NCBI GenBank assembly: GCA_022113835.1
Contig: JAILWY010000014.1
Coordinates: forward strand, 15,621,501 to 15,685,500
From: Atopsyche davidsoni
Lineage: Eukaryota > Arthropoda > Insecta > Trichoptera > Hydrobiosidae
DNA length: 64,000 nucleotides
Reading direction: 5' to 3'
The translations under genes and the position numbers were made by a program. The notes under the pieces are model-generated. The model saw only the letters and a list, made by a program, of their open reading frames with translations, was not told where the DNA came from and did not search any database. Shown in pieces: positions 24,448 through 58,480 of the stretch (positions are counted from its first letter, which is position 1; every line of letters starts with the position of its first letter).

Positions 24448-24610
24448 TTATTGAGGGACAAGGCATTTGATTTGTGAAGTTCCATTATTGTTATGATAGA
24501 AAGTAACTTTGTATTTTTGTCTTCACTTTGAGTTTATTAGAATTATTTGCATAGCTAGTTTCGACCCTATACACTGGGTCATCATCAGATGCATGACTAA
24601 GTTTAGTAAA
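24448..24610 (-). repeat. P2 repeat copy with hammerhead-like core
   Basis: The minus strand reads ATGCAT, CTGATGA (24588-24582), T, GACCC, loop, GGGTC, GAAAC (24562-24558), TAGCTATGCA. Stem I UGCAU/AUGCA and stem II GACCC/GGGUC are intact. The stem III palindrome ACUAGU is damaged to ACUAGC. The rest of the repeat carries the family landmarks AACTCAAAGTGAAGACAAAA, CAAAGTTACTTTCT and AAATGCCTTGTCCCTCAA. Confidence 0.75.
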
Positions 24611-24689
24611 TTATTATTGTTTTAATATTACATTAAACATGCCCAGTTATATTTAAATTGAACATAATATAGAAAAATGCTAACTAGGT

Positions 24690-24800
24690 TTTTTGATCTG
24701 TGATTAGGCCAAGGACTCTCAATCGACAACTCCTTGGTTCGATCTCCAGACAAGTTACCCACGAAACAATATTGTTGGGCTCGGGCCTGTTTCAGTTCAG
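24690..24800 (+). repeat. tRNA-derived SINE-like sequence
   Basis: A B-box-like GGTTCGATCTC, preceded about 35-45 bp earlier by an A-box-like TGTGATTAGGCCAAGG, with a partial T-arm around the B box. No full cloverleaf forms. The following sequence (CAAGTTACCCACGAAACA onward) would be the SINE body. This rests on the promoter boxes only. Confidence 0.35.
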
Positions 24801-25218
24801 ATGAAGACGAATTATACTGGAATTTCACTTATCAATATAAATTTAAAAAACTGAGTTAGTATGGTAAAATTAAAAACGAAATAGGTTTAACACGAAAAGC
24901 AAAGGGAACACTCGAGCACTTCTCGATAATGACGACTCCCACTCTAAAAGAGAGAACATTCAAGAATTTCTCCATTAATAAGCTATCGATTGCGGTCTTG
25001 ATATATCAATGAAACTTCTTTCACCAGCTTGCACACTTAACTGATTTTATTTTCATAAACACGAAACGAATAATCAATTGAAGTTATTACTAATACGCAG
25101 GCCACCGTGCACATTTTTTCATCGAAAAAACATTGGGTGTATTTATTTTTAATTTTTTTAGCGATTCCTCCAAAGGGGGCTGCATGGATCGCAGCTACTT
25201 GGCAGCATATAGTCGCAC

Positions 25219-25307
25219 GCGGGCAGGCCAGGGCAGGGCAGGCCAGGGCAGGGCAGGCCAGGCCAGGGCAGGGCAGGCCAGGCCAGGGCAGGGCAGGGCA
25301 GGCCCGG
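25219..25307. repeat. G-rich 5-bp-based minisatellite
   Basis: Mixed GGGCA and GGCCA pentamers arranged in higher-order 10- and 15-bp units, about 17 pentamers. It lies about 140 bp left of the Tc1-type element. The ORFs reading through it in several frames are low-complexity artefacts. Confidence 0.9.
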
Positions 25308-25445
25308 GGACCGCGTGCCGGGGATGCAGCCCGCCGTGCCGCTCACTCCACCCTTCAGTTTGCACACGGTCCACGGATAAATTGGATTTCGTGATATCAA
25401 TCCAATCGTCATACCGACGTATATATATATATATAAATATATATA

Positions 25446-26726
25446 TAGTGTGTTTAACAAGAACGTGACCACTATAAAAAAATGTTTTCGGGGTTTTTTG
25501 CAAAGAAAAGAAATAAGCAGGTAGCCCAATGTTTTGTTCTTAATGCATCGTATAAATTATTCAGTTTTCGTGTTTACTTCGCACAGAGTGCAAATTTCCA
25601 GAGATGAGTGCCGCGTATGCTTCCCGCTATGAGGCAGTGTTCCTTTGTTTGCATCCTAAAGGACCAAAAATGTCACGCGTTCAGGCTGCAAAGTATATGG
25701 ATAAGTCGAAGGGGTTTGTTACTAAGTGGGTAAACCAATATTTAGAAACAAAACACGTCGATGACCTACCAGAAAGTGGTAAAACAAAAAAGACGTCGTC
25801 CGCCGAGGATAAGCTGATAACTAACCTATTTTTGAAGAAACCACATCTATCTTTGCAATCTGCATAAGAAAAACTGAAGCCAAAAGGACTAAATATATCT
25901 CTAGCTATAATAAGAAGACTTATAATGTAGATTAAGTTAGAATACTGAAGCACATTGAAGAAACCGCTCCTTTCAGAAAATCACATTAAAAAATGAATGT
26001 CCTGGGCACATGAAAACAAAGACCGCGACTGGGGCAAGATAATATTTTAGTTAAATTATTAAAGTTTTAGGCAACTAGTATCTCATCTCGTGCTTGGTCA
26101 ACTGCCGATAACAGACTAGCCAAAAAAAACTGTTAAACATCCGGTAAAGGTGCATGTTTGGGGATGCTTCTCAAAACGTGGTTTTGGCAATTTTAACTTG
26201 TTTACCGGAACTTTGAATGCTGCAAGGATTATCAAAATATTACTATCTACCCAAACCAGAAAGTATTATTACTATCTGCCCAAAAACTGTTCCCAAGCCC
26301 AAGTGAATCATGGATATTATAAGAAGATAACAACCCAAACACCGAAGTCGCCTATGCAGCACGTGGAAACAAGATAAAGGCATCGAGGTCTTGGATTGGC
26401 CCTCACAATCTCCTGACGCAAACCCAATTAAAAACGTTTAGACGTTGATGAAGCCTAAATTCGAGGAAAAAAACCGCCAACTGCCACAGAGCTTACTCGC
26501 AACTTAAATGGCATATGGAGGTCATTATCCCAAGAATATGCAGAAAAATTAGTTGAAAGAATACCTCGAAGATGCCTGGCTATTATAAACAACGGAGGAA
26601 ACTGGACACCTTATTGATAATAAAGCATCTAAGTATGTATGATTAACTACGTGTTTTATTATTTTAAAATGCTAGACTTAATTTTTTTTACAACTTATGC
26701 GAGTTACGCTCTTTTGTTACATACTG
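25446..26726 (+). mobile_element. Tc1-type (DD34E) DNA transposon, decayed
   Basis: About 1.28 kb bounded by TA dinucleotides. The diverged inverted ends are AGTGTGTTTAACAAGAACGT on the left and, reverse-complemented on the right, CAGTATGTAACAAAAGAGCG. Inside, on the plus strand, are an intact transposase N-terminus (25604-25867) and then displaced pieces of the catalytic core. The length, TA flanks and motif order fit a full-length but dead Tc1/mariner-superfamily element. Confidence 0.85.
25604..26441 (+). pseudogene. Tc1-like transposase, frameshifted and inactive
   Basis: The first 87 residues are open and look like a helix-turn-helix DNA-binding domain (SRVQAAKYMDKSKGFVTKWV) with a Pro/Lys-rich linker. 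After a stop at 25865 the frame shifts repeatedly. SWAHENKDRDWGKI, VHVWGCFSKRGFG, EDNNPKHRSR and DWPSQSPDANPIKNV are recognisable in order. The second catalytic Asp is present (in EDNNPKH). 34 residues separate it from the third catalytic position, where Glu has become Lys (NPIKNV), and the following Trp codon is a stop. The first catalytic Asp region is lost in frameshifted sequence. Confidence 0.85.
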
Positions 26727-27598
26727 TATATATATATTGGTAAATATTTTTTTTTTATAAAGCGTTTTTGAGTGGTGAACATATTGTAAATATAAGTATC
26801 CCAAGTGCAACACGCTGCAGTCACTCTGAGCTGGTGAAGCTCGCCTCCCTTGCCGGGCTTCAGTCGATAGATTCCAGCCGCGAAAATACTTATAGTATTT
26901 ACCGATAAATCTGATTAGAGAGTGAAAAGTTAAATTTAAAAATCTAGTAAACATCATTATTTACGAATGACTAAAAGCATATGAAGAATCGAGCCTTCGC
27001 ATTTATTAATTTTTAATCTTTATGGAATGTCTTCACGATAAAGAATGTTACCAATATGTGTTTATAAAGTGTGTCTTCCTGGTCCACGTTTCTTCCTGGT
27101 CCACGTTTTCAAACAACCTTATGATAATAAGATCAAATTATGGACATGACTATTGTTGCTGGGATAGTGAAGGCTCTCTTATTTTTCATTATTAATTCAA
27201 AAAATTCTATGTAACATTTACAACTGATTCCCGCTAATTTTTTATAAATATTAAACAAACAAATGTCAGATCATTTTCTTAATCGAACTAAGGTGAGATT
27301 TATTGTGTGGCAGGAGTGTGTGAGAAGTAATTACTCTGTATTCACAAGTGGCCAGTACCGCTTGGCGATACAACGCTTTAAATTCCTGCTGCTCCGCAGA
27401 CAGCTACGGATACAGTAATATGAAAGGGATCTCCATTATAAGCGATAGTGACAATTTATCGCAGAGAGGTGTGAAGACCTCTACAATGGAAACCCTCGTC
27501 ACCCCTATAAATAACTCTGTCCTGCAGCTCTGCCAGCTTTTTCGGGATGATATATCGAATCACCTCACCGCGTCCCCGGCGACCTGGCGTGGCGCGTG

Positions 27599-27637
27599 AC
27601 CTCACCTCACCTCACCTCACCTCACCACACCTCACCT
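27599..27637. repeat. (CCTCA)n pentanucleotide repeat
   Basis: About seven copies of CCTCA with one variant (CCACA). It does not match the telomeric unit CCTAA. Confidence 0.85.
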
Positions 27638-27737
27638 GCCTTGCGTGCATCCCGCGTGTCTCGCACGTGACACGCGGACACTCATTAAAAATATGAAAAC
27701 TACACGCCGCGACTGGAGTAAACAGTAAACAAGTATA

Positions 27738-27945
27738 ATTATAATTATAAAAAGTAACCCAATGACCGGGTCATCATCATGACTAAACTGGTAATCTGAT
27801 GATGACCCGGTCATTGGGACGAAACTAGTTATGCAAATAATTTCAATAAACTCAAAAGTGAAGACAAAAATACAAAGTTACTTTTTATAATTATAATAAT
27901 GGATCTTCACCGTTCAAATGCCTTGTCCCTCAACAAGAGTTAACA
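27738..27945 (+). repeat. P2 repeat copy with hammerhead-like core and inverted stub
   Basis: Plus strand: CTGATGA (27796-27802), T, GACCC, loop, GGGAC, GAAAC (27821-27825), palindrome ACTAGT (27824-27829), T, ATGCA. Stem II has an A-A mismatch and the upstream stem I strand is lost (GGTAAT instead of TGCAT). The left 50 bp (CAATGACCGGGTCATCATCA) is an inverted partial copy ending inside stem II. The right part has the landmarks CAAAAGTGAAGACAAAAATA and CAAATGCCTTGTCCCTCAAC. Confidence 0.75.
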
Positions 27946-28117
27946 AGTAAACCGAAATATGGTTGTAAAAGAGACAAACAATCGTATAATTTTTGAGTTA
28001 TTTTAAGTTTAATTAAAAAATTCAATTCTATTTCCTTTCCACGTTTTCCTTCTTTAAAAATTAACTCAAATAAGTCATGTCTTTGTTATGATTAAAACAA
28101 TAATTACAAAGAAATTC

Positions 28118-28304
28118 AATATTTTTGACAGAGAGTACTTGGTGGAATTCCATTTTAATATTTTTGAATAAAATACTTGTGAAACTTGTAAAACACTTGT
28201 AAAATACTAAAATACTCTGTTTGATAATGCCAACGTGAAAGGTTGGCGAAACCGGTCACTAATAAAAATAAAAATGTGGAAAATCACTCAAGTATTTTAT
28301 GTTT
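28118..28304 (+). repeat. P1 repeat copy with the best P1 hammerhead-like core
   Basis: Plus strand: UUGAUAA (28221-28227), U, stem II GCCAAC (28229-28234) with loop GUGAAAG and GUUGGC (28242-28247), all six pairs intact. Then GAA (28248-28250), palindrome ACCGGU (28251-28256) and C at 28257 in the cleavage position. Left-hand family landmarks (TTGACAGAGAGTACTTGGTG) lie in the opposite orientation relative to the ribozyme arm, so the copy is a rearranged foldback. Confidence 0.75.
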
Positions 28305-31181: not shown

Positions 31182-31785
31182 CTGCGAGAAAATCAGTCTT
31201 TGTTTTACTCGCTCCTCGAAACTTGCCTTGCCGCGGCGGCTCCCGCTCGTGCCTTGCGAGGCGGGGCGAGGCGGGGCGGGGCGGGGCGGGGCGGGGCGGG
31301 GCGGGGCGGGGCGGGGCGGGGCGGGGCGGGGCGGGGCGGGGCGAGGCGGGGCGAGGGCGAAGCGTTACACGCGACGCGGTCACCCGTGGCCAATGAATTA
31401 TCTTATTATTATTGCAGTCATTGCAATTGGTCAAAAGTTTGTCTTTTCATTTTAAAACACTTCAATCCTAAAAATCTCATAGATTATTGCATCACCCGAA
31501 AAGGAAAAACTGGATATCACTTCTGTGCAAAAGAACTGTTTCAAATATTTATTTGATTTTATTATATAGTCAAGTGTCGATTTCAAATTGAAATGATTTT
31601 GGTACTTATACGAAAAGAGTTTTTATTTTCCATTAAACACAACACTTGACTTGACACAAATACAATCGATTTTCGAGTTTCATTTTCTCTCCTCTTCGTG
31701 TCTTCATTTGATACTTGAAGTGTAAATGTGATACTTGTAAATGAAGTAAAAGAATATTGCCGAGCCCACCTTCAGGGGTACTCAC
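31182..31785 (-). other. Receptor intron, 604 bp, carrying a (GCGGG)n array
   Basis: The shortest intron in the window, between the end of the ectodomain and TM1. Apart from the array at 31256-31358 it is AT-rich and featureless. Confidence 0.85.
31256..31358. repeat. (GCGGG)n minisatellite near a splice acceptor
   Basis: About 20 pentamers with three GCGAG variants near the ends. The plus strand has a GGGG run every five bases (potential G-quadruplexes). The receptor transcript, from the minus strand, would carry the C-rich complement 75 nt upstream of the TM1 exon. Confidence 0.95.
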
Positions 31786-31889
31786 CCTGACGTCGTCCGG
31801 GACGCAGCCGGTGTAGTTGGTCCAGGGCTTGTTGGTCTCCGGGTGGCGGAACCACGTGCCGTTGGACTCGCAGTACTTGGGGGCGGATC
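31786..31889 (-). CDS. Receptor exon: C-terminal half of hormone-binding domain
   Basis: A 104-bp exon with acceptor TGTCGGTCGCAG and donor GTCAGG|GTGAGT. It enters in phase 1 (completing Arg68) and leaves in phase 0, and encodes residues 69-102. It carries the fifth and sixth ectodomain cysteines (Cys74 in KYCESNGTW and Cys96 in NYTGC). It also holds two N-glycosylation sequons (NGT and NYT) and the core GTWFRHPETNKPWTNYT, which follows the calcitonin-receptor pattern. The tail CVPDDVR leads to the stalk. Confidence 0.94.
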
Positions 31890-31929
31890 CTGCGACCGAC
31901 AATAAATACATTAGATAGCATGTGTCGAC

Positions 31930-32060
31930 GATAAAAATCATCGAAAATAAATCACGACACGAGTGGGATTCGAGCCTACGACCTTTGCCGGCTGCCCGGC
32001 TGCTGTGCCTGATCGAGAAGTCGACTAGCCGCGTCGTGCGGAGCGTTGTTTCACGTTTTA
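31930..32060 (-). repeat. tRNA-derived SINE-like element, about 40 nt from exon acceptor
   Basis: Minus strand: A-box-like GGCTAGTCGACTTC, then AAAGGTCGTAGGCTCGAATC with a good B box and T-arm, then CCACTCGTGTCGTGA. This is the standard head of an insect tRNA-derived SINE. It is in sense orientation to the receptor, and its 3' part runs to roughly 40 nt from the acceptor of the 31889 exon. Confidence 0.55.
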
Positions 32061-34183
32061 CTTGGCAAGCCGCAGAACTCGCGACGTCTATCATTAAAAT
32101 AAAGTTCTCAGTGTTGTTAGGACACATCAATATTTTTAACTCAACTAAGGTGCCAATCAGTGTTTTATAAAGATTTTTATCAAATGTTTTTAATTGATCC
32201 GCGTTTTTTCTCATGATATTGATTTTTATCGTCGTTCCATGCGTAAACAGATTACCTAAATATCGCATATGCGATAAGCTTGTATGGATGAATAATGCAG
32301 ATTAATTGCAAGTGTTTTCTTATAAGCATTGGATTGTTGAAGCGCGACCTGAAACACGATTGAGATAAAACCGCGGTGAGCCTCCCGTGACACTCTCAGG
32401 GGGAACAAGCGTTATTTACGAGCACACTCACAAAATAAACATATGATTAACTACCATATTTTATTGCTGTGAATTGATTTTTATGAGTGCATGTAGTACT
32501 AACGCATTCGACTTTTAATAAATAAGAACCAATATAGAGAAGACTCATCAAATCGTGGCAGAAAATATCTTTCATACAATTGCGAAAATATCCAAGGTTC
32601 TGTTATATATTGTGGTCCAAAGTTTTGTGTATAACACATGAGTTTTTAAAATAAAAAAGTTCATTTAATTATTGTTAAACCAAATTAAGATTTTTGAATG
32701 AATTCTTTTAGATTTTTTTTAACGGACAATTAAACATGCATGGATACAATGTAGATATTATAAACGAACGTTTTTTTTTAATAAAGCAAACATCTTATTG
32801 ATTATTTGTTAAATTGATAACCCAGTTAACTAGTGATAAACACATTAAGTTCACTGATTTCTGTCCAGGTGGAGTAAAGTTTTATTAAAACAATTAAAAC
32901 TACCACAAACACTTAAGACAGAAATCTCTTAATAAGAAGAATAAAAGCTTTTTAATTCGATTTACAATGACTGCATAATACAACACCGGAAACACAAAAA
33001 TCCGAACACAGCCACAATTTTCGTATGATTTTCTTTGCTTTTCTCACCTACCTCCCGCTTGCAGAAGCTGAACCTGACAGGGCGTATTGATAATTTTATA
33101 CATTTATATAGAATATCGATTTTAGAAACGATTATCTTGTTACGTTTAATGTTTGGCTGATGCTATTTGGCAAGAGCACAGGTCCGGTGGCAAGGGTGGA
33201 GGTGCAGGTCGACCCAATTACGATAGCAATAGTGCGCGGTCGGCAGGGCTCGGGGATGATGGTAAAATAAAAGAAACAACGCAAAATATAACTACATTTA
33301 TTAATCACCGTTGTGTCGTAACGTGTGTTGGGAGCCATATGTGTATATACATATATGAGGGGTGGATAATTCGACGGCGACGATCACCGCCCGTGGCAGT
33401 CGAGCCACCTGCTGTGGTGGCTGACTCGAGACGCCCAAGGTAACCAAGGATCTCTGCCAGGACACGTGGCCGGGTGGAATAATTTGATAAATTGTGGGCG
33501 GGTTCAAAATAGATTAAGTCGGGTTAGATTATGGGTTATTTAGTTTAGGTCGTAAATAGTACAACACAGCTCCCGTAATAAACCCCGGGTAACTAAACAC
33601 ATCATACTTGCTCAAGTTTCACATGTTTACTTAGGTACATAAAAAGCTCTGAGCAAATATGATAACCCAAATGACTTAATTTCCTATATCTTACGATACG
33701 ATACGATTTGGCTAGTCACACTTGTGCATAAAAAACACAAAGTATCACAAATAAAATTAGTTCGTTGTAAATAAAACATCTCTGATTTGAGAAGAAATAA
33801 ATTCACAAACGTCAATTTTTGAAAATGAAACAGAAATTATGGATTAATCGTGACAGGGAAAATAACTTTTGTCAATATTTAATACAATAATATTCCAGAA
33901 TTGGATAACTTCGCATGTAGCAAGTTGAGTTCAGATGAACAAAACTGATCGAAGGTTTCCAAAATTTTCAAATTGAATTATAAATTATTAATTGTTTAAT
34001 ACAGAGGTTCGCACATGGAGCGCATTTTTTTCGGATGCGTGAAGGACGAAACCGTTTTCTTGAATTTACAGTTACACCTCCCTTCTCCTTTCACCACCCC
34101 TCGCCGCCCGCCTGCCCTATAAACACTCTAGAAAGTCCACCGCAGACGGCGAAAAAACCAAAGAGTCGAATAATCACGGCCGG

Positions 34184-34298
34184 CTAGGGGGCCAAGGGGC
34201 CAGGGGAACAGGGTGACAGGGTGACAGCGGGACAGGGTGACAGGGTGACAGGGGGACAGCGGGACAGCGGGATAGGGGGACAGGGGGACAGGGGGCTA
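34184..34298. repeat. G-rich minisatellite, period 9-10
   Basis: Tandem GACAGGGTG, GACAGGGGG and GACAGCGG variants, about 11 units, preceded by GGGGCCA repeats. Many regularly spaced GGG runs lie on the plus strand. Confidence 0.85.
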
Positions 34299-38462: not shown

Positions 38463-38782
38463 CTGCAACGGGAGACACTGGTTCAATTTCAACATTTAAC
38501 ACCGAGGTCAGCGAAATGGTTGTCAACCGATATTAATAAAATAGATAAACATGATTTTTCATAAGTAAGTCCCCTCCCTGCCTCCCTCTGCTTCCGTGCA
38601 AGTGCGGGGCCGACCTGAAGGAGGCGCGAGGATGCGACACAATGACCTCCAGAATTACATTAAACATAACTGTTTTTAAGAAATATTTCAAATATTAAAG
38701 CAAAGTATATATTTGCAGCCACAATTACAAGTACTTTTTTTTTCTTCTTTAAATACAAATATTCACCAGTGTTATATTTAAT

Positions 38783-39072
38783 CTTGTTGAAGGACAAAGC
38801 ATTTGATTGGTGAAGATCCATTATTATAATAATAAAAGTAGCTTTGTATTTTGTCTTCACTTTGAGTTTATTATATATATATATTTTTTTTTTTTGCATG
38901 ACTAGTTTCAACCAAATAGACTAGGTCATCATCAGATGCATAACTAAACTGAGTTTAGTTATGCATCTGATGATGACCTAGTCTATTTGGTCGAAACTAT
39001 TCATGCAAAAAAAAAAAAAAAAAAACTCGAAGTGAAGACAAAATACAAAGTTACTTTTATTATTATAATATG
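38783..39072. repeat. P2 head-to-head foldback with two hammerhead-like cores
   Basis: Two P2 copies in inverted orientation meet at ATGCATAACTAAACT-G-AGTTTAGTTATGCAT (38937-38967). The minus-strand core (38942-38896) has stem I UGCAU/AUGCA, CUGAUGA, U, stem II GACC/GGUU, GAAAC, palindrome ACUAGU and C in the cleavage position. The plus-strand core (38961-39007) has CUGAUGA (38967-38973), stem II GACC/GGUC, GAAAC (38993-38997), damaged palindrome ACUAUU, C and AUGCA. The outer arms share AAGTGAAGACAAAATACAAA. Confidence 0.85.
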
Positions 39073-42000
39073 TTATATTAAGAACATTCTTGTTGAAATT
39101 ATGTTTAATATTCCAACGAAACTAAGAACAGCAGTATAAAAAAAACCAATTTATCACAGAAAAACACCTCAACCCTACATGACTTTCGAAATATATAATT
39201 TTTATGACACACATATACTACATTGGTCAAGTTGTATAATTTTATAGCTTAGACGAAGCATTATAATTTAGACGTTATTGACATTCGATATAAACATGAA
39301 CAGTTTTTTAGTACAAAAACGGATAATCTCGCATGCATCTTTTTAAACAATACACAATCATTCTAATAGAATCTTTGACAAACTGAATAGAATTCATCGG
39401 TTGAACGCGTCATCGGCGTCAGAACGAAGAAGAAAAACAAGCTAAATAAATACATGCGCTTTGTAGCCAAATTTCTTTGCCGGCAAATAAAACGAAAAGC
39501 TGAGCTTTACCGACCTTAGGAAAATTCATGCGTAAATCGTCGCCGATGACAAAATCCACTTCGAAATACGGTATTTAAGCCTGGACCGACTTAAAACTTA
39601 TTCCGTTCCTAGGGGCTTCGATTGTTTTGACAGTCGAGGGGGTGGGGGGAGGCTTTTAGGCAATTCCGATTGATACACGCAAGTGATGGGAAAACTTCCG
39701 GCCCTGCAAATCCACTCTGCCGCCGTCATTTCTGGAGGTACCAAAAATCTTTGAATGCTTCTTTTCTTTGCGCCGGTGATATCTTTAAGAATGTTGGATT
39801 AGCGCGAAATGAAAATGTACTCAAATAGAGAGGGGACGATCGTCGTGACGAGCTTCGAGGGCGGCGAGGGACTACCCGGAAGCGGGGGTGTTAAGCGCGC
39901 GGGTTATTGTCGAATGAATATCACATTTATTATTTACAATCAAAATCTCCATTTTAAATGAAGATCTAAGGCAATTTTTGTTGCTATTATTAAGTAGCGG
40001 CCATTCGGATGTAAATGAAAAAAACAAAACAAAATAAAAATACCCTACTAATCACACCATTAAGGGGTACGAGTGCACTAAGAGATGTGCTGGCGACCAA
40101 GGGGGTAATGGAATTGCTGAGATTCTACTACAGGGGATTGAGAAAGGTTCTCCGGGAACGGTAAATTTTGTATGAGAGAATGTTTAATAGAGGATGCGGA
40201 GGCTTTGTACATGGAATAACCTGTTTGAATTTACATTTAATATTATCACAATTATGAAAGCAATATATTTAGTCCATGTGTAAGTATTCATATTATTAGA
40301 TATTTGGTGTGCGAGATCCGAAAAGATACTAAACATTTAAGTAGCGCGAATTCTTTTGGACTCATATATTATAGTACAAAACCGTTATGCAATCTGACAA
40401 ACAAGTACATTTTTTCACCGAATATTTGATAAATAGATTTGATTTTCTAAACAACTAATTCATTTCATTGATTCGGAAAGACTATCTCAAATGAATATAT
40501 ACATTAAAGTTATAAAAATAAGTAATTTATTCGGTTTGAATAAAATTAAAAACAGCATTTTTATTTACTTTTCGGTCTGGGAACGCTGGCACGCTTGCTT
40601 GCCGCTGGAACAGGGCAAATATGAAATAGGAGAACGAAATTAAATTTTACACAAAAGCAGAATTATTCCCAGGGTATTTACAGACGAAGCACACGAGGAG
40701 CAGAAAACGTCGCCTCGTCTATCATAATTTACATTATTTTTACCATTAAGTCACTAATAGTCGTTCATACATCAGGTAAACTCCAAAATACACTGGTGAT
40801 ATGCTGGTTCTTAACAAGAATGCAGCATACATTGATGAAATGTCTGCGGGGATCTCCCCGGTAGGGACTGATGCTTTCTTGCAGTTTTTTTTTGTTTTTC
40901 TATATTATTTTAATTTTGAGGCTGTACCAAAAGTAGAATAAAGAAGACGCCACCTGAGCTGAAAAATGACCTGCGGGTTTCCCAGCTCGGATGGAAAAAA
41001 AAGAAAGGTTTTGCAGGAGGGGGTGTCACCTTCGTGTGGAGCGCAACCCACAGAAGTCATTCCGGATAAAAGTGATCAAACTGAACTGCCTTTTGGTCTA
41101 TACTGTACAACTAAACTTTTCACTGAGAGACGAAATGCGTAAAAAAAAAATGAAATGAAGTACGTGGAGCTGGAGGAGCTCCAGCACATTTGCGGGTCTG
41201 TCGCCTATTCTTATCAATAATGCTCGGTGATTACGTTTATTGCTGGCAATAATCCGCCAAAGAGTGACGAGCGGTTGGCGAAGGAGATTTCTCATTCAGT
41301 CTTCATCATCGCACAATTTATAGATACAGACGGAGGAAATCCATTATTTTCTTGAGCATTACTTTTATTGATAGCGGTCTCACCGATAGGAAACTCACTC
41401 GCACGGGAGTAAAGGTCAATTAGTTCTGGACGATTTACCCTCGAAATGTTATTTCTTTGTTTATTGGTTAATTGGATTTGCGGGTATATTTATTTTATAT
41501 TAAATACTCTGGGATTTTCAGATTAAAATGCAGGTTTTTGCATTTCTTTGCAAGTCTTCGCTTGTTTATTTCCTGCAGCTATAAATACACGGTTTGAAAT
41601 TACTCGCATTGGATTAAGATTGACTGGTGTACGGGCAGTGTGCATAATGGCTAACCTTTAAATATTGACAGCGGCTGATCTTCAAACATGTGCGGGCTTG
41701 ATAGCAAAAATGTATCAGATTATAAAAAACATACAAGTGCTGAAAGAGAAGGTGATTAGTCCGACAGTGAAGATGACGCAAATCAACCTGTAGTTCCTGC
41801 TGGTAGGCTCTCCAAATATATCTATGATATTATAAAATATTATCATTGGACATCCGTTCGTTTTTCGCTTGCAGGTGTATGTGTTTTCAAGCTGATCTAC
41901 GATATCTACTGTTGCTTCTGAGCGCCTCCTTTCAGTATCCTTTTTTTTTAAATAGGCATATTTGTTTTTTTTAGTTTTTTTGATTTGTTCTTTTGGTTGA

Positions 42001-48595: not shown

Positions 48596-49758
48596 CTGCA
48601 CACAAGAAAAGCGTCAGCCAAGTCTCGAAACAAGTCTCGGGACTCAAGTTTGTGTCTCTGTGATCGATGTTGTAGAACCAAAAACATCAAGGTACTCAAT
48701 TAAACATCCAAAAAAGGACTGATCGAGTACAAGTCCTGAAGTCCTGAACGCTCATTGTCCCTGAATATCTTAGAACCGGCGATAACCGAAGCGGAGCAGA
48801 TCAATTTAATAAGGATTGAAGCTGTGCTTCAGGATGTCATAATTTATCCCGCTGTTACTTCCTCGGGGTATAGAAAGATGGGCGACGGTCGTGCCTCTGC
48901 GAGGGAAACGTTATTTGCCTTCTTTTGATTGAATGTTATTTGCGCTATTGACGAACTAGGCCACAAAGAACTGTACAAGCATTTAAAGACTTAAACAACT
49001 TTTGCAGTTGTGATGATTCATTAGGATGAATTATTAGTGAACCGTTGTCGATGGCACTCACGAGCGACTGAAAGACGTTAGATACAAAAATAACTTCTTT
49101 GAATAAACATTGTTTGCACGTTGTCAGATTATTAAAAAATGGTTACTTAAAAAGCAATGTCAAATATCTGTCTTTAAATAAATAATTTACAGAATTTTGA
49201 CTCTCAAATTACCAGCTGGAGTTTCGTCACTGTTATCTATTTTTGCGTTTTTGAATACTTATTTCACTGTTGAAGGTTTTTTTCTAATTGATTGAAAAAA
49301 ACATGTATTCGAATAATTACACCAGACGTGAACTGCTGCTATGAAATTATATATTTAATAAAAGCTTGTTCGGTTTTGTCAAAAAAGATTTACCTTGAGA
49401 TGTAAGTGTCGATTTTAACCGTTTCTTACGTCTTTGATTTAGCGTTGAAAAGCAGAGTTCGCGGAAAAGAACCCCGCCAGGCTGGCCCCGAGGTTATCGG
49501 ACTGGGATAAAAGACTTAAGCCGTGTCATGCTGCATTATAATACTACTGAAATCGTCAGTATCGTCAAATATAAATTTAAAAAATGCGTTGCTTACTTTT
49601 TAGGTCTTCACGTTGCAAAAAAAGCTACTGGGAATATTTCGCCGTTGTTTTGTCGATGAAATTTTTTGCCGTTTTATGCAATTATGATGACACAATAATA
49701 TTACTAAGGATACGCTACCGTGCGGGGTGCAAATGCCACCCCCAAAAAAAAAATAAGA

Positions 49759-50583
49759 TTATAACAATAAAATAAAACTAAATGGTTTTGGAGACTACGT
49801 TTATTTTGCTTATAGCGAGAGCTCTTTCGCCGAACACGGCATCTTCAAGACTGATTCTATATAGAAAACACGAGTTTATACATAACAAAATCAACAAAAT
49901 TACATGAGTCATAGATATTACAAATTTATGTGGAAAAAATTGCTTCTATTGGGTGCTGTGAAACCCCATTAAAATGACATTAACAGCAATAATTTTAATA
50001 CTAAGTACTTAAATAAACTATTTTATGATGATTCCTGGCTGTCCTGGCCGCCACCTGAAAGCAATTAGTTTGGAAGCAGAATCACATTGTATTTTTAAAA
50101 ATATTAAGAAGGGGAGAATTATGGTTGTTAAGTTGTTCATTGATCAAAGGGAATTCTAGATTTTGGTGCTTAATTATTTCTAATTGCTCCAAAATATTAA
50201 GTCTATAGCCTTTATTGGAAACATGAAGGAGACTTGGCTTATTATCAACATTTAACTTATGTTTACTGTCATTAAGATGTATTGCAAATTGTGAATCTAA
50301 TTTATTATTTTTAAAAGAAGCCAGATGCTCTTTGTATCTTGTTGCAAAACTACGACCTGTTTGACCAATGTACATAGCTTTGCAGTCATCACACGTTAAT
50401 TTGTAGACTCCACTCTTTTGGAAGGCATCAACTTTGTCCTTACTGTTTTTTAAAAGTATTCCTAAGTTGCTTCTATTCTTAAAGGCCATTTTAAATTCTG
50501 GTAATTGTTTCTGGTAAGAGCTCTCGCTATAAGCAAAATAAACGTAGTCTCCAAAACCATTTGGTTTTATTTTATTGTTATAA
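49759..50583 (-). mobile_element. Penelope-like element, 5'-truncated, with inverted terminal repeats (P3)
   Basis: About 68 bp at 49759-49826 recurs almost perfectly as an inverted copy at 50516-50583 (landmark GGTTTTGGAGACTACGTTTA and its complement). Between them, on the minus strand, lies the 3' part of an ORF with a GIY-YIG endonuclease domain. Penelope-like elements are the retroelements that combine a telomerase-like RT with a C-terminal GIY-YIG domain and carry direct or inverted terminal repeats. Here the RT is missing. The left repeat also contains a hammerhead-like core (49848-49817 on the minus strand): UUGAAGA, U, GCCG/CGGC, GAA, AGAGCUCU, C. Confidence 0.85.
50082..50489 (-). 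pseudogene. GIY-YIG endonuclease domain of a Penelope-like retroelement, 5'-truncated
   Basis: 135 open residues from an internal Met. The frame is also open upstream (SSYQKQLPEFK) to the junction at 50517. The endonuclease core starts GVYKLTCDDCKAMYIGQTGR, with the GVY/YIG pair, the Cys-x2-Cys motif typical of the Penelope endonuclease linker, and the catalytic-type Arg in GQTGR. Next come FATRYKEH and a downstream HLNDSKH block. A conserved Glu-type residue may be supplied by LEQLEIIKH. In the intact element this domain nicks target DNA for reverse transcription. The RT part is absent, so this copy is dead. The stop at 50082 looks like the natural C-terminus. Confidence 0.88.
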
Positions 50584-51103
50584 AATGGAGTATTACAAAA
50601 TAAATACCAGTTCCATTAATTAAAATAAGATTACTTATTCAAAATTGTTGAAAACGCGATACAATGGTCGACCATTCTTTCAGCTCACAAAGCCGAGCGG
50701 TATCAAGCATCTAAGGCGACTGGCTGACGATTATCAGCTCTCTCGAGTTAATATTTACTGAAACTGAGATGATTATCTACGAAGGGCGTCCCGACCGGAA
50801 CCCGCTGTCCGCGATAAGGCCGGGCAGGGCGCAACTAGACCCACACCGAGGCCAGACCGTTCTTCACCCGAACCTTCACTGGGAATCAAAATAGTCATGA
50901 ATTACCCAGCAACGCAAAAATGTACTCGGTCGAGCTTCTGAGGCTTTGAATCACGTTGCGGCAAAAGCTGTTTGAGATAGATTTTGACAAAAGTTTTTGA
51001 GTTGTTTTTAAACTTGTTACTTGTGACTGACTAGTTTATGAGACTTTTTACAAATGACAAAAATTAGTTCTTTCAGTACAACTGTCAGCAGTAATACCTA
51101 GAG

Positions 51104-52013
51104 CAGGGGTGTCAAACTCAATTTTGCAAAGGGCCATATATTAAATTTAGAATGTGTAGGCGGGCCAGATTTAACTTAACGTTTTTTTGACATTATGCCT
51201 GTTGGCGACGCGAACACGCACAAGCGGATATTAACACTTTGATTTTACTTTATGAGATACTTATTTATTAACTTTTCTATAAGACACTTATTCTCAATCG
51301 CCTTTTGATTTCACTTTTATCTTTACTTAGATAATTTAACACTTTGATTTTACTTTACTTCCGACTCGCGGCAGTATGTTCACTGAGATTTGTAAAATCT
51401 CTTTTCATTAACGACGGGTATGCGAACGCATCGTAATCCCGCCGGAGTAACTTCGCTCCCGGGCAGCGGTTACCCATCGGAGTTCCTTCGAATACTGCCG
51501 TCTAAACTGCTTGGTCCTCTTTTTTGTAATGGTCCAGGACATAGATTTGCGTGGGGTAGCGTGTAATCAAAACAAAGAGAATGCAGATTAGCAGCTGGAC
51601 ACGTACTTCGGGACGCGCCAGGAAGTTCGATCGTAAAACTACTCGGGCGGGTCTTATCCTGTGCCGTCTTAAGCCCAGGTGCGTGCTTAAGGCTCTGGGA
51701 AGCAACAATTATTAGTTGTTTACTAGAACTGCGGCCTGCGGCTGTGGTGTGATTTCTCGTGGCGAATACTTTAGTTTTAGCTGCTCGCGCGCGCGAGATA
51801 GAAAAAAGCATAAAAAAATAGGTACCTAACTAATACTCTCTCGCTTGTCTAATGTAGTGTACGCATTTTAAAAACTTCCGTAGAGGAATCGAGTGAAGTC
51901 TAAAAGCTCTAAAAAACATGATTCTTTTTTCTGTGACACATTGCGATCGCGGGCCGTATTGATACAGCCCGAGGGCCGGATGCGGCCCGCGGGCCGTATC
52001 TTTGACACCCCTG
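51104..52013. mobile_element. Non-autonomous hAT element, 910 bp
   Basis: Both ends begin CAGGGGTGTCAAA (13-bp terminal inverted repeats). A perfect 8-bp duplication ACCTAGAG flanks it (51096-51103 and 52014-52021). Subterminal GGGCC/CGGCCC palindromes cluster within 70 bp of the right end. The interior is more GC-rich than its surroundings but carries no transposase similarity I can see; the ORFs at 51470-51811 are not recognisable. Confidence 0.9.
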
Positions 52014-52329
52014 ACCTAGAGATTAAAGTCAGACTACCAAAACCTGTTGCGATAAATTAATATCAGCGGGCATAGAGCTAACTTGTGTTTGTTAAGATAA
52101 ATTAAATTTGCACAAGCGACAGTTAAATTTCTTTTGCTTCATCCGACATTTTTGAATCCAGTGTAACGTTATTTTTGACTTTTATACAGTTTTAGTTCCG
52201 CATTGCGAGTTGAGGCTCAGCCTAAGCGACCTGGTCGGCTCAGGTTGAGAGATAAGAAAGGTATTTATATTTCGTTATATCAGCAGCTTTCGGGCAGCGA
52301 GTCACAAGAACAGGCGCAAGTCATGCGGG

Positions 52330-52466
52330 TCGGCCTCAGGGTGGCCGGCGGGGTGGCCCGCGGGGTGGCCCTCAGGGTGGCCCTCAGGGTGGCCCTCAGG
52401 GTGGCCCTCAGGGTGGCCCTCAGGGTGGCCCTCAGGGTGGCCCTCAGGGTGGCCCGCGGGGTGGCC
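52330..52466. repeat. 12-bp minisatellite (CAGGGTGGCCCT), about 11 copies
   Basis: Tandem CAGGGTGGCCCT units, homogeneous in the middle and diverging to GCGGGGTGGCC at both ends. 12 being a multiple of 3 gives uninterrupted tetrapeptide repeats in all frames, which I treat as artefact. Confidence 0.95.
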
Positions 52467-54045
52467 TGCTCGGATCGAGGGTGCAGGCGATAGTACCCGG
52501 GGGGTGCAGCGGGAGGCGCTCGGACCCGAGATATCCAGCACAAGCGGTTTCATTTATATCTGCATAACAAAACCAAAATGTTTTATTTTATATTTATTTT
52601 TTATTGAGGGTGTCCCGTGATCGAATTTTTTTATACGTATAAACACTTTAGATCCAATCTTAATGGTGAAATTTATCAAAATATTTATAAAATAAATTAA
52701 TATTTAAATCGTTCTGTTAGAAAACGTTCTTCCAGTTTTAAATTCTTTACGCATTCAGTTATACGTTAATTTACAAGAATTTTCTGCAAAACTTTGTTTA
52801 TTGAATCATAATTTTATCCGAAAGATATTTTAGCATCTTGTCTAAACAGCGGCCGAGTCTATTGCCGTGGGTGCAGGTCGCGCGAGTCATCGCAGGTCGA
52901 AGAGAAGTTTTTAAAATTTCGTTTCGCTCATCGGCCTAACTTTTCAAGCGATACTCACTATAGAAATTCTACAAGCGTACGACTTCGAATGCACGAAGGA
53001 GGAGACGCTTTGCAAGGAAGTGTGGCGAACCTTTAAGCCGGCGCCCCGGAGGTTTTTCTGAGCACGCTTGCCGACTTCTAAAAATATGTCAGTAATTTGA
53101 TCAATAACGCGAACGTTAAAACTGTATAGTCATTTTCCGAAGAAACAAGATTCAATTAAACAACTTAAAAGTAGAAAAATTTATTTATTAACGGGTTACC
53201 TTATTATAACATAACTCTCTAAAAAATCAAGACTAGACGAGTTAGTGAACAGCGGTCGAAGCGGTCAGAGATTCTTGCGGCTGTACTCGGGTGAGAATGT
53301 ACCGAGGGAAATCACAGAAGACGCGCATTATGGATACCTAAATAGAGATGCATATAGTATATTTCGTAGAGCGGGTAGAGGGCGGGGCACGAGGGGACGG
53401 CAGAGTAGAGGAGCACTCAGTCCGCACGAGGATGTGTTTATTGGTTATGAGCAATATTTAGTCAGTGCCTCGGCGCGGCGCCCACGCGTCTCAGAACGAG
53501 CCGCGAGAAGTCGAACGAGGTAAACAGAGATCGCGGCTTTTGCGAGGGATTTACAAAATTTAAGCAAATATTATCTTTTTTCGTTAAAATAGCTTTTGTG
53601 GATTATCTTAGAATCAAAAGTAAATGGTAAGTGTGCAAAATTTAAAATGAACTCGAAAAATACACGCAAAGACGACCGCAGAAGGATTCGGTTTTTAACT
53701 ATAAAACTGATTTATTAGTGTTGAAAAAACTAAAAATAGGATAGAATACGAGCTTATTCCAATGAATTTTTCTGGACCCTTAGATGTACATTTAATGCTT
53801 AATGTTTAATTTAAACAAAAACCACAGTAGGTTTTTTTTTAAATAAAAATATGAAATAGAAAATAATAATTTTTATTCAATCAACCAAATGTAGTACTCA
53901 ATTTTAAATGTAAATTAAGTTGATTTTTTTTTCTATATGTGCATGAACGATTAAATAGACAGCTGTCGTCGGCTAAATATTATATATAAACATAAGAAGA
54001 GTTCAAATTCATGTAATTTCACAATTCGCTGGTAGCATTGCGTGC

Positions 54046-54073
54046 GTGGAGCGTGGAGCGTGGAGCGTGGAGG
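54046..54073. repeat. 7-bp tandem repeat (GCGTGGA)4
   Basis: Four perfect copies, then a diverged GGGTGTC. Confidence 0.85.
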
Positions 54074-55319
54074 GTGTCTGGTCCGCCGAGGCGCCTCTGC
54101 CTGGCAGGAACCGTCCGAGCCATCGCTTTAATTATTATCGTAAGCCTCGAGTATAAAATTAAATTGAAAAAATAAGATTGGCTGCAGAAGCGGCACTACC
54201 GCTCGATGTTTCGAATTATCAGAGCTCAGGTGAGTTTCCAAGGTTTATGGGCGATATTTTTCCAATCTTTACGAGAGAAGATGAGCATATTTATGGGTTG
54301 TAAATTCTCGCTTTGGCCGCGAGGAGCTGAGGAGTTTATGGGGGCTTAATTTGGCCCAGCCCGAGCCGCGAGGCAGGGGCGCGGGGCCGGGCCGTATTTA
54401 AAAATATGAAAAGATCATTCCAACTAATGAATAAAGTTACGAATGACCATACTTAACTATTATGCAAGCTCATCGATAGGGACTTTAAATATTTTTTTTA
54501 TAAATTTGACCTGAGTTTCTGTAGCAATTGCTTTGGTGCGCGATCCCAAACGACTGCGAGTGCGCGGCACACATGAGGTTACATTTATTTCCGTCACCAG
54601 CACTAATATTATTGTTATGAAGATATCTCCGCATTAAGCTGTGGAAGGGGCGCTGAACTACCGGCATGCGGATACCGAATGAAAGTTTATAACTACAACG
54701 AGCCACTAGCTTTGTCGTAGTTTGAGCATAAATATACTCGATTCAAGCGCACTTGCTGAAAGTCTAGCAGGCTCATGTTTGGAGCCTGATGAAATATCAG
54801 CCTGGCCTCTCCTGCGAAGGCGCACAAAGTAGAACACCAGGCCACTTACTGAATTGTCAGTATCTTATCGACCTTTCTACTGAAATCGATTCCACGTGAA
54901 ATAAAGAGAAAGACCACCGATTCCCGGCTTTCACGGCCTGACGCCGTACCTACCTGCGTTTCTCTGTACTTTTTATTTAATGAAATATAAACTTTTTATA
55001 ATCTTGAACATTTTTACACCCTTAGAAGAAGTAAGAGTGTCAATGAGAGAAAGTGCTCAGGGGAATCCGAATAGTCATACTTAAAAAGTAATTGGATAGT
55101 TTCTCATTTGAAACAAACATTTCAAGTAAGCTCTAGCGTATACCATATTTCCCGCATATAATTATATTTTTATTTATAAAGCCATTAACACTTGGGGTGA
55201 AAAGATTTTGATTTGTGAATTCTGCTCCATGAGTCGGGGCCGGTGCGGGCACACCTGTTGCACTACCGGGCGCCTATATATTGCTTATTTATCAAGTCGT
55301 AAGCCTACCATCCGAGGAA

Positions 55320-55475
55320 TAATAAGCATCGGTAGAACAAATCTATCGTGGATGTGGAATTCGCGGCAGTGGTTGGAAGTCGGAAGTGCCGCCGAAGTAG
55401 TAAGACTGGCCCAGGATAAATATATATTCAATGAGATGGTCACCAATCTCCTCTGAAGAGAGGCACTTGAATTAA
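55320..55475 (+). mobile_element. Non-LTR retrotransposon 3' end with readable ORF C-terminus (family R)
   Basis: The plus-strand frame reads ...EVVRLAQDKYIFNEMV and TNLL-stop, immediately followed by AGAGAGGCACTTGAATT. The LAQ-x2-Y-x3-EMV-x-NLL ending recurs in the 21845 and 60763 copies. This looks like the acidic/aromatic C-terminus typical of RT ORFs of insect non-LTR elements. Sequence upstream of about 55320 is not clearly related to the other copies. Confidence 0.45.
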
Positions 55476-55622
55476 AAAAATCTACCATCGTATATACATA
55501 CTACTTTATAATATGTATTTGTAAATTGCACTACGGTGCGTCATTTAACGGTCGAGCTGGTGAAACCTAACTAACGCAGATCTCTGGCGGTAAAAAAAGG
55601 TCTTGAACATGAACCTATAAGA

Positions 55623-56142
55623 CATGGGTGGCCAAACCGCGGCCCACGGAGCATATGCTAAATATATATATCCACATGTTTTACAAAACATATTTGGACA
55701 AGGAGAAATATCCTGCATTAAGCAAACATGCTCTATCGATGATTTCGCTATTTGGAAATACTCACTCGTGTGAACAGCTTTTTACTCGAATGAAGCATAT
55801 TAAATCTCATATGAGAACTCGAATTACTGATGAGCATTTGGAAAACTGTTTGCGTGTAGCAACAACATCGATCGTTATCAACATTGATGCACTTATTTCT
55901 GACAAACAAAATCAGACGTCTCACTAAAATTTATTATATTTTGCTTATTTTTTATTATTATTATTTATATTTCCTAATTCTAATTTAATAAATATGTTTG
56001 ATTCACATTTGTATTGTATATTCTTCAAAAACACTATATTTCTTGCTTGCTTTGTATATTAAATGAAATTTTGTTGTACGGCCCGGTAGGAAATCTCATT
56101 TCCTTAATCTGGCGCGGCTGCTGAAAAAGGTTGGCCACGATG
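55623..56142 (+). mobile_element. hAT deletion derivative, 520 bp, keeping the transposase C-terminus
   Basis: Imperfect terminal repeats: CATGGGTGGCCAAAC on the left and, reverse-complemented on the right, CATCGTGGCCAACC. An 8-bp duplication with one mismatch flanks it (CTATAAGA at 55615-55622, CTATAAGG at 56143-56150). The only coding content is the last part of a transposase, so an internal deletion has removed everything from the left terminal region to the dimerisation domain. Confidence 0.88.
55664..55927 (+). pseudogene. hAT transposase C-terminal dimerisation domain fragment
   Basis: About 85 residues of recognisable hAT C-terminal (dimerisation) domain: KYPALSKHALSMISLFGNTH, then SCEQLFTRMKHIKSHMRTR and ITDEHLENCLRVA. 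The pattern S-x-LFG-x-T-x-S-CEQLF-x-RMK-x-K-x2-R-x-R-x-T-D-x-HL is shared by active hAT transposases and host proteins derived from them. The open frame starts upstream at 55628 inside the terminal repeat, so the first Met is artificial. The catalytic DDE portion and zinc finger are missing, and the stop at 55925 is probably the native one. Confidence 0.88.
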
Positions 56143-58045
56143 CTATAAGGCAAGGTATATGAGAAGTGACATTACAAAAATTTCAATATATCCAATAGCA
56201 GATGACTCTTTCGCTTTCTTTTTACAACAGCCGCTCGATTGTGCGATATGGATAACACGGGACGGCGTCTGCAGATTCAAAATATAATGCAATACGTCAC
56301 CCATTTGACCCGCGACCCGAGAGTCGACTGGGTCGCCTCGCCAGTTGGCCTTAGTTTTCGAGCGCTACGGAAAATGGCCTTATACTCTACCCTAGCTGCC
56401 GTGTTATCTGGCACTCCAGAGACGATTAGCCTCAGCCGTGGCTCATCGAACCTGCAACGGTCAACCAGAAAGCAAAATTTACGAACTCGAATAACTCGCT
56501 AATATATTGAAAAGATTGAGGCAAAAAAATAAAAGCTGTCAACTAATCGATACATCTGAATAAGCTTAACGTTGTCGTGGAACGTGTAAATCTTATTTTA
56601 TATTTTGGAAATTAATTTTTTTATAATATAGCGTAAATATTATTATTTTAAATAAAAACACATTATACCGGTTTCAATATTGAATATTTGATTTGTAAAA
56701 AGGATTTTTGAGATTTTTGTTGTTGTTGTTTGTTTTCCGATTTTATTGGATTCATTGGAATTCAGGCTTAAAAGAGGGAGACGGGGGAGAGGAGGCCGCT
56801 GGGTTTACAGGGGAACTCAAACACAGTATCACTCGTCGTAGCGACTTGCTTAACAACTAAGGTAGCCTCAAATTATCAACAACATTTTGATGTTATAGCA
56901 TCGATCAATAATAACAATCTCAAGCTTGCTGAGTAATAGAGAAATAAATAAATTGAAATTTTACTATATGCAATGGCTTTAAAATATAATTTGTGAAATC
57001 ACTTTTTAAAGTCGCACTCTACACACGCTCGGGGAATTTCAGAGTGGTGCAATTAAAACTATATAAAAACTACAATTTTGATAAAGAAATATAAAAATGT
57101 CTTTAATACCGGTCGACACTGGAAAAGTAATACGGAAACATAGTTTATTTAAATTAGCTGCCATGGCCTAAGAACAAATCTATACAATGTGTACTGATGG
57201 GGCACTGTCTTGTATTTGTCAAATTGTCTAAATACAAGTGCCTTACATTATTAAATCTTATAAAGAAAATAAACATACCGTTCTAGTCGGCAGTCGGCTT
57301 CTAGCTTGCGACAAGAACATGTATTATTTACTCTCTACCCCGCGTTACTACTGTAAAAAGGATCAAGAAACCGTGTACACATTCGACATGTTTGACCTCA
57401 AAAACATCGAATATTTACGGCTTTGTATCGGTTTGTTTGTGTTTGGTTTCTGTGAAACGACGTGGATTTTGAAAAAACATCCTTCTACGCTCTAGCACAA
57501 TTCCCATTGAAAACAACTAACCCTTTTCTATTAATATAAAAAATAACATCAATAAAAAAAGTCCCTAACTGGGAACTATTTGCACTATAAAAAAAATTAT
57601 ATCTTTAAAGTTACAAATACAGTTTCCAGTCTAAAAAATAAATACATTTTTTTTATTTGTTCGAAAAAAAGGAATTTTTGTTTTTTATTAACTTTTTTAT
57701 CTTAATGCTAGCGGATAAACAATATATTGAGTTTTTTCGGTAGGTGTGTAAACAAAGATTTTTCGGCTTTGATTTTGATTGCGGCTTCGATTAACTACGT
57801 GGCGATAGTTTTTTAACGGCAAGTTTTATTCCGTTGCACAATTTAGGTGGATTTAAGGGGTGAATGAGCATCTATGGTGAACCAACTTTTAAAGTTAAGA
57901 TGTGTGGTGACATTCCAGATGGTTCCAAAGAGTTAAAAAACTCTATTGGACAGTTGACTCTATTTAGGAACTTCATTTATACAGCAATTTTTCGCAAAAT
58001 TATTGTGGCTGTGCTGCTCGTTATTCGGGTTTTTTTTTCAGTAAA

Positions 58046-58230
58046 ATAAATATTTTTGAATAAAATACTGGAGTGATTTTCCACTTTTTTGTTTTTATTA
58101 GTGACCGGTTTCGCCAACCTTTCACGTTGGCATTATCAAACAGAGATAGATGACTCTGTATTTTATTCAAAAATATTAAAATGGAATTTCACCAAGTACT
58201 CTCTGTCAAAAATATTGAATTTCTTAACAG
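58046..58230. repeat. P1 repeat copy, foldback with hammerhead-like core
   Basis: The minus-strand core (58140-58100) is UUGAUAA, U, GCCAAC, loop, GUUGGC, GAA, ACCGGU, C: stem II and the palindrome are intact. The right part is the inverted outer arm (ATTTTATTCAAAAATATTAA, then CCAAGTACTCTCTGTCAAAA). It lies 75 bp from a P2 copy. Confidence 0.75.
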
Positions 58231-58304
58231 TAAAATAAACACATTATTCGTTTTCTAAATGAACAGCAAGATGTTGAACAGTTGGGTAAGTCATGAAGTC
58301 ATGA

Positions 58305-58480
58305 CATGAAGTTTAAGTCCTGCATCTGATGATGACCCGGTTTATAGGGTCGAAACTAGTTATCCAAATACAATATTCTAAATAAACTCACTGTGAAGAT
58401 TTAAATAAAAATTTATTCTTTTCATTATATTAATGGATCTTCACCATTCAAATGCCTTTTCCCTCACAACCATTATTATT
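58305..58480 (+). repeat. P2 repeat copy with the best P2 hammerhead-like core
   Basis: Plus strand: stem I UGCAU (58321-58325), CUGAUGA (58326-58332), U, GACCC (58334-58338), loop GGUUUAUA, GGGUC (58347-58351), GAA (58352-58354), palindrome ACUAGU (58355-58360), U (58361), then AUCCA opposing stem I with one mismatch. Family landmarks CTCACTGTGAAGATTTAAAT and TTCACCATTCAAATGCCTTT follow. Confidence 0.8.

Follow-up and report, generated by a model that had tools for sequence, protein, structure and literature searches.

Hammerhead-like repeats as probable pseudo-long terminal repeats of Penelope-like elements in Atopsyche davidsoni

A 64,000-nt stretch of the Atopsyche davidsoni genome (JAILWY010000014.1:15,621,501-15,685,500, from an assembly of 370.7 Mb; hereafter the window) contains three families of short repeats, P1, P2 and P3, that are very probably the pseudo-long terminal repeats (pLTRs) of three families of Penelope-like elements (PLEs) encoding reverse transcriptase (RT) and GIY-YIG domains, each with a putative minimal type I hammerhead in which stem III is a palindrome that has no loop. 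The window loci number six P1, four P2 (several decayed) and one P3, a weak P2 match at 52662-52710 (E 3e-4) being excluded from the count. PLEs are known to carry minimal type I hammerheads (PMC7761336, PMC6155905, PMC7229834), which may cut as dimers (PMC7761336). The A. davidsoni elements are of this known kind, here with unusual changes in the hammerhead core that are missed by the Rfam models tried.

Coding regions upstream of the repeats

That all three repeat families are pLTRs of PLEs is supported by GIY-YIG frames lying upstream of each of them, and the original prediction, which placed P1 and P2 with P3 among Penelope-type terminal repeats, is in this respect borne out, most weakly for P2. 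The RT-GIY-YIG open reading frame (ORF) proposed to lie between repeat copies was found for P1 as an intact RT frame with a GIY-YIG end, and for P2 as decayed GIY-YIG frames only. The fragment encoded by the P3 element of the window scores 20.6 bits against the Pfam GIY-YIG model (PF01541), just under the cut-off of 22.6. A genome search with this fragment, in which 150 of 1729 candidates were scored, gave at least 153 matches; among the matches listed, open frames extend to 858 and 839 codons, most matches are 64-100% identical and a second group is 43% identical, and both tandem and inverted arrangements occur. A P1 hammerhead lies downstream of the GIY-YIG match in all ten fetched loci of the 43%-identity family and a P3 hammerhead in nine of ten fetched P3-family loci, several of these copies being near-identical and those loci therefore not independent. 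The same order is seen in additional loci for P1 (L070, L071, L072) and for P3 (L069, L073).

Intact ORFs of 810 aa (P1 family) and 816 aa (P3 family) both contain Pfam RVT_1, the only domain that Pfam returned on the full ORFs, their GIY-YIG ends being recognised by alignment. The two proteins are 41% identical across 818 aligned positions; the shared hammerhead architecture of P1 and P3 is thus by descent, and the earlier view that it is not simple homology fails at least for these two families. Tandem units are spaced ~2801 bp (P1) and ~2775 bp (P3) apart, and the next ORF opens inside the repeat, at the ATGGA of its tail, as the window copies had suggested; in a tandem P1 copy the repeat sits ahead of the following start codon. 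A single RT/GIY-YIG ORF, tandem units and pLTRs are shared by P1 and P3 with Poseidon of Anolis (PMC11167929) and Penelope of Adineta (PMC3846280).

For P2 only a decayed C-terminal part of the ORF has been seen. At locus L103 a P2 hammerhead lies ~200 bases downstream of a decayed frame with a readable GIY-YIG motif (tblastn 1.6e-10), and at L101 a decayed GIY-YIG-like frame ahead of P2 was read by eye, tblastn giving only 0.17. Both belong to a longer P2 type (L005, L024, L101-L103) that has ~140-180 nt extra upstream and, near AAACGATAAACAC, a fold-back junction of its own. A pattern for full-length P2 made up of TATA plus initiator had 19 matches, of which several are the same place read in different shifts; three loci excised from these showed no clear PLE frame.

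A protein search with the P3 GIY-YIG fragment found 10 relatives, most without a given name; compared with the window they gave, outside the P3 locus, only two weak matches (E 0.27 and 0.81). PDB sequences held no match to the fragment, the P1 and P2 patterns and the GIY-YIG protein found no relatives among viral contigs, and the P2 pattern had no match among genome contigs outside this genome. P1 looks abundant, several matches falling within single arbitrary 10-kb stretches (L051, L053).

The hammerhead-like core and its predicted folding

The motif was searched for with a strict descriptor consisting of [TC]TGANRA, one base, a stem II of at least 4 bp, GAA, an A-initial palindrome, and then A, C or T. 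It has five matches on the two strands of the window, every one a P1, P2 or P3 copy: the cores first noticed at 28221 on the plus strand (P1), 58326 plus and 38935 minus (P2) and 49848 minus (P3), the positions of which proved correct, and a second P1 core at 58139 on the minus strand. No match was obtained in the window with 0 or 2 inserted bases, nor with the strict descriptor in 60 dinucleotide shuffles of the window (2-kb blocks), and 89 alternative descriptor settings gave three matches altogether. A slightly looser descriptor, applied to 200 kb of arbitrary genome stretches, matched six times (P1 twice, P2 and P3 once each, and two chance-like places), so that ~1 chance match per 100 kb should be allowed for. 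The proposed search with one extra base and a loopless palindrome thus returns only P1, P2 and P3 in the window and mostly these in the 200 kb. The chance rate lends a little to the notion that these are chance matches plus ordinary inverted repeats, an explanation that is hardly credible and already refuted by the 1719 places in the genome that match the exact P2 pattern, against 0 for the reversed pattern, by the empty shuffles, and by recurrence of the motifs across 79 P2, 17 P1 and 11 P3 distinct copies. With the Rfam hammerhead models, which may not cover a loopless palindromic stem III, the window has no match, either at gathering score or with E relaxed to 10. Fold-back PLE copies at 9076-9226, 38910-38993 and 27758-27818 do produce sub-threshold Rfam miRNA-precursor matches, which constitute an annotation hazard.

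The extra U after A9 is common to the three families. The P2 core is otherwise of the standard CUGANGA type, with the extra U in 79 of 79 copies and a C-G 3-8 pair in 73 of 78 scorable copies. Departures are found in P1, which has UUGAUAA (changed at C3 and G8), and in P3, which has UUGAAGA (changed at C3). Among 17 P1 copies the 3-8 pair is U-A in 11 and U-U in one, five being unscorable, with the extra U in 14 of 14 scorable copies; the 11 P3 copies have U-G in nine, U-A in one and a gap in one. In Anolis Poseidon activity is partly recoverable by changing C3 and G8 together (PMC11167929). Position 17, preceding the predicted cleavage, is A in 36, C in 25, T in 15 and G in one of 79 P2 copies (two gaps), C in 16 and T in one of 17 P1 copies, and by reading C or A in P3. 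G is also rare at 24 consensus-A positions of the P2 tail (23 of 1862 letters), and the argument from position 17 rests therefore on A, C and T all being common.

Stem II (GCCAAC/GTTGGC in P1, GACCC/GGGTC in P2, GCCG/CGGC in P3) and the palindrome both change on both sides between families. Because P1 and P3 are homologous elements, these two-sided changes are better structural evidence than changes within a family. Compensatory change is stronger between families, and within P2 it is limited to one stem II pair, the inner one, which is C-G in 31 copies, A-T in 7, T-A in 4, T-T in 33, T-G in one and C-T in one (43 of 77 paired). The P2 pair counts come from a custom script and are biased for stem II pairs 1-4 and for the palindrome, most loci having been pattern-selected for these; with that bias, the three pairs of ACTAGT are kept in 75 of 76, 77 of 78 and 76 of 78 scorable copies, many of which were selected for ACTAGT. 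ACCGGT is present in 16 of 17 P1 copies, and AGAGCTCT was read in most P3 copies. Stem I is short, with 5 bp in the best P2 copies, and poor in P3. The latter can also be read in a second register with C3, the extra U and a 3-bp stem I, and owing to its poor stem I in the simple register P3 is a weak case as a hammerhead. At a guess, self-cleavage is likely for P2, possible for P1 with its U3-A8 swap, and doubtful for P3.

Stem III could form only between two motifs, because the palindrome is loopless, and in three of the five copies folded (P1_28109, P2_58310 and P3) the minimum-energy dimer has the palindromes paired. Lunse et al. 2017 is reportedly the source on dimeric hammerheads of this kind. 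For dimeric hammerheads a palindromic loop of stem III is described as a requirement, to which tandem motifs are added in eukaryotes (PMC6466107), and a supplement legend reports several ribozymes, with one example from Aedes aegypti, in which stem III is palindromic (PMC3088659). The thought that a loopless palindromic stem III would suit a dimer-only ribozyme fits P1-P3, and is already in print in these two papers. P1-P3 share with the published PLE hammerheads, as far as those are described, the type I form, a reduced or missing stem III loop, a tandem occurrence and predicted dimers, and may differ from them in the U3-A8 of P1, the mostly U3 with G8 of P3, and the extra U in all three families. 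An extra core residue likewise lies after A9 in the hammerhead of chrysanthemum chlorotic mottle viroid, which is a viroid RNA with a looped stem III. In the plus-strand hammerhead of that viroid the additional residue is A, as against U here (PMC3705267).

A9, the extra U and G10.1 together spell AUG in P1, P2 and P3, with a frame that runs for 3 codons in P1 and for 10 in P3. The published description of Anolis Poseidon puts the start codon after G8, starting at stem II, which would imply the same extra U in this element; the Poseidon cut site lies 26 bp downstream of the start codon (PMC11167929). Unlike Poseidon, P1-P3 have a distance of 57-68 nt from the predicted cut site to the main ATG, and in the copies read only the short frame begins at the ATG of A9, U and G10.1.

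Insertion anatomy and its possible origin

Most copies in the window are head-to-head arms, an inverted tail piece being followed by the hammerhead and tail, and nine of 15 inverted repeat pairs listed (at most 1200 nt apart), including the first eight, fall in P1, P2 or P3 loci. Repeated words of 8-14 nt stand at the outer arm ends of six of 11 window loci (adjacency judged by eye), and in all six, for P3 by reading, one arm is long and one short. The same anatomy was examined in P2 loci from the 1719-place list with both cores recognisable and at most 140 nt apart. All 17 such head-to-head pairs have one long and one short tail, nine as long/short and eight as short/long, with no long/long or short/short tails among them; pairs more than 140 nt apart (L005, L024) likewise have one of each. 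Words of at least 9 nt near both ends are found at 12 of the 17 pairs against 20 of 272 mismatched flank combinations, and words of at least 11 nt at 10 of 17 against 2 of 272.

Most arm ends fall at one of two sites, either at or just before ATGGA or ~37-46 nt into the frame. The distance from the predicted cleavage site to ATGGA is 57-68 nt, and in P1 and P3 the ORF starts at this ATGGA. Short P1 arms end at reference position ~97-100 (ATGGA at ~101) and long ones at ~142; on the P2 tail ruler the short site is 75, where the ATG also lies, and the long site 115, with two exceptions among the 17 pairs, one short end at 39 and one at 84; P3 arms end a few bases before ATGGAG and ~40 nt further on. 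The ribozyme cut site was also considered as the end point of short copies and then dropped, a small hand-picked set of ends giving no pile-up there.

At the other side of the repeat, right arms begin ~6 nt (P1) and ~15 nt (P2) before core position 3. The window has three near-identical P1 copies whose right arms all begin within 1-2 bases of the same CTCTG, upstream of which ORF-bearing P1 elements extend with TATATAAAATCTCA or TATATAGAATCTCA. Among 27 P2 copies beginning AGTTTAGT the upstream bases mostly differ, five longer copies having TTTTGCT or TTCTGCT; there is a preference for T at -2 (19 of 27) and for C at -1 (13 of 27), and the actual end may therefore be 1-2 bases further upstream. 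The P1 and P2 junction points look like RNA 5' ends near which the hammerhead begins. TCACT or TCAGT near these junctions is presumably an initiator-like motif, and the RNA 5' end of P3 would be 4 nt before position 3 if its TCAGT is assumed to be the initiator. An Inr-like TCACT is mentioned for Adineta Penelope (PMC3846280).

This anatomy fits two-ended target-primed reverse transcription from two internal sites. A promoter in the pLTR would make an mRNA beginning with the hammerhead; the PLE protein would nick both DNA strands and prime reverse transcription at two internal sites, one per strand; and the two cDNAs would be joined head to head, leaving two inverted arms, one with a long and the other with a short tail, together with a target site duplication (TSD). 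Were both strands to start on the 5'-proximal pLTR of the mRNA, a short ORF-less copy would result. In tandem transcripts neighbouring palindromes would pair and complete two ribozymes, and the paired predicted ribozymes would cut at position 17, releasing unit-length RNA. Penelope of Adineta vaga shows inverted pLTRs, an optional tail on one of the pair and an 8-9-bp TSD (PMC3846280); its inverted pair, tail on one arm, short TSD and pLTR reaching into the ORF are all like those of P1-P3. Anolis Poseidon has two internal RT start sites that were found biochemically, with starts that are alike on both strands (PMC11167929), a likeness to the two sites proposed for P1-P3 that extends to the hammerhead at the ORF start.

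Most copies examined are ORF-less units of ~100-165 nt per arm, as would be expected if P1 and P2 were stand-alone animal retrozymes that borrow PLE enzymes and spread via hammerhead-cut circular RNA. Type I hammerhead animal retrozymes coexist with PLEs (PMC7229834, PMC7761336), and the non-LTR (long terminal repeat) retrozymes of animals resemble P1-P3 as short repeats with type I hammerheads found alongside PLEs (PMC7229834). This explanation is nonetheless very improbable and largely refuted: retrozymes are, in published accounts, tandem ORF-less repeats with classical type I hammerheads, whereas the same P1-P3 sequences serve as pLTRs of ORF-bearing elements; right arms begin upstream of the hammerhead and not at the cut site; and among 20 P2 loci tandem-like spacing amounts to two same-strand cores 155 nt apart (L010) and two cores 776 nt apart (L025), longer arrays not being seen.

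Several observations weigh against P1-P3 being PLE pLTRs with minimal hammerheads. In one of the ten fetched P3-family loci (L081) no hammerhead was found downstream, no intact P2 ORF was found in the genome loci examined, and five of the 17 P2 pairs have no repeated word of at least 9 nt. The three best window copies of P1 have a stem I of only 2-3 bp, the P3 core departs from CUGANGA even in recently active family copies, and two of the five copies folded, P2_24444 with its decayed palindrome and P2_38788R, prefer another dimer. Among 13 early-stopping P1 arm ends, chosen by eye to the exclusion of weaker matches, there is one at 2 nt or less from the cleavage site; with no pile-up there, cut RNA leaves no sign of having been a template, which agrees with a template of uncut RNA. 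In vitro, Anolis Poseidon hammerhead mutants insert normally, and Poseidon RNA is cut only with protein present (PMC11167929). From three of these points, namely the UUGAAGA and poor stem I retained by the recently active P3 family, the insertion of Poseidon without hammerhead activity, and the failure of arm ends to accumulate at the cleavage site, it could be argued that the repeats are PLE pLTRs but that the hammerhead is a dead relic kept through its overlap with the promoter start and with RNA recognised by the protein. We regard this as a serious but rather doubtful explanation, for stem II and the palindrome differ among families yet stay paired, the 3-8 pair is U-A in 11 of 12 scorable P1 copies and C-G in 73 of 78 P2 copies, and position 17 of P2 is often A, C or T with a single G.

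An unlikely possibility is that the palindromic stem III owes its retention mainly to a role in RNA dimerisation, either of two PLE RNAs or of the two pLTRs of one tandem RNA, in which case a dimeric PLE protein would start one cDNA at each internal site, one per DNA strand. If true, this would account for the pairing of exactly one long with one short arm in inverted insertions, and for the survival of the palindrome in P3 despite a weak-looking catalytic core. The 1719 P2 places together with the two intact-ORF families provide material for testing the rule of site choice and the role of the palindrome, and the same genome allows tests of how far the hammerhead core tolerates an extra U and the pairing of U3 with A8.

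Individual copies and other features of the window

The P1 core at 28215..28263 on the plus strand has U3-A8, the extra U, stem II GCCAAC/GTTGGC, palindrome ACCGGT and C17. It belongs to an insertion at 28109..28299 (plus) made up of an inverted long-tail arm (28109-28179), filler and a right arm (28215-28299), the right end of which stops ~12 nt before the usual short site is reached; a TSD was not found at the ends of this insertion. A second P1 insertion, at 58039..58239 on the minus strand, has a long left and a short right arm, a hammerhead at 58097-58145, and a 12-nt repeated word, TTTATTTTACTG, at 58228-58239 and 58039-58050. In a third, at 9013..9244 (minus; repeated word TTTAGACATGTTTA; hammerhead 9119-9167), the right arm is long and the short left arm is in two pieces, the catalytic half being skipped. 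Older P1 insertions, all on the minus strand, lie at 15084..15280 (repeated word TCTTTAGTT, short left and long right arms, decayed hammerhead 15186-15234) and 59717..59901 (long left and short right arms, decayed hammerhead 59756-59804, no clear TSD), and an old right arm with a decayed hammerhead, the left arm of which was not found, lies at 6075..6222.

P2 is represented on the plus strand by a right arm at 58310..58466, with a long tail that opens ATGGATCTTCACC and a hammerhead at 58320-58367 that has C3-G8, the extra U, stem II GACCC/GGGTC, palindrome ACTAGT and T17. The head-to-head insertion at 38770..39079 (minus) has hammerheads at 38894-38941 on the minus and 38961-39008 on the plus strand, one long and one short arm, and the repeated word AATATAACA; that at 27728..27949 (plus; repeated word AACAAGTA; hammerhead 27789-27836) has a short, rearranged left arm and a long right arm. 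A further P2 right arm at 24451..24600 (minus) has its hammerhead at 24547-24594, with 16.1 decayed to C. A clear left arm was found neither for this copy nor for the right arm at 58310.

The single P3 core, at 49811..49854 on the minus strand, reads TTGAAGA, the extra U, GCCG/CGGC, palindrome AGAGCTCT and C17. It is part of a 5'-truncated element at 49750..50633 (minus) with the repeated word TAATCTTATTTT at both ends, an inverted long-tail arm at its 5' end and a 3' pLTR with a short tail. The open frame with the GIY-YIG end occupies 50082..50615 (minus), its codons upstream of ~50515 being those of the inverted tail.

Between two opposite-strand P2 copies, at 25580-26640, lies a remnant that by eye resembles a Tc1/mariner transposase gene. 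A perfect 68-bp CCTAA repeat at 23509-23576, inside the contig, is of what we take to be the arthropod telomere unit. An open frame at 31633-32301 on the minus strand matches the Hormone receptor domain PF02793 at 25.1 bits, just under the cut-off, and is perhaps an exon of a peptide-hormone receptor. Another dispersed repeat, with a CCTCCTCT...AGAGGCAC motif, occurs at 14711-14793, 21880-22267, 55421-55470 and 60770-61141.

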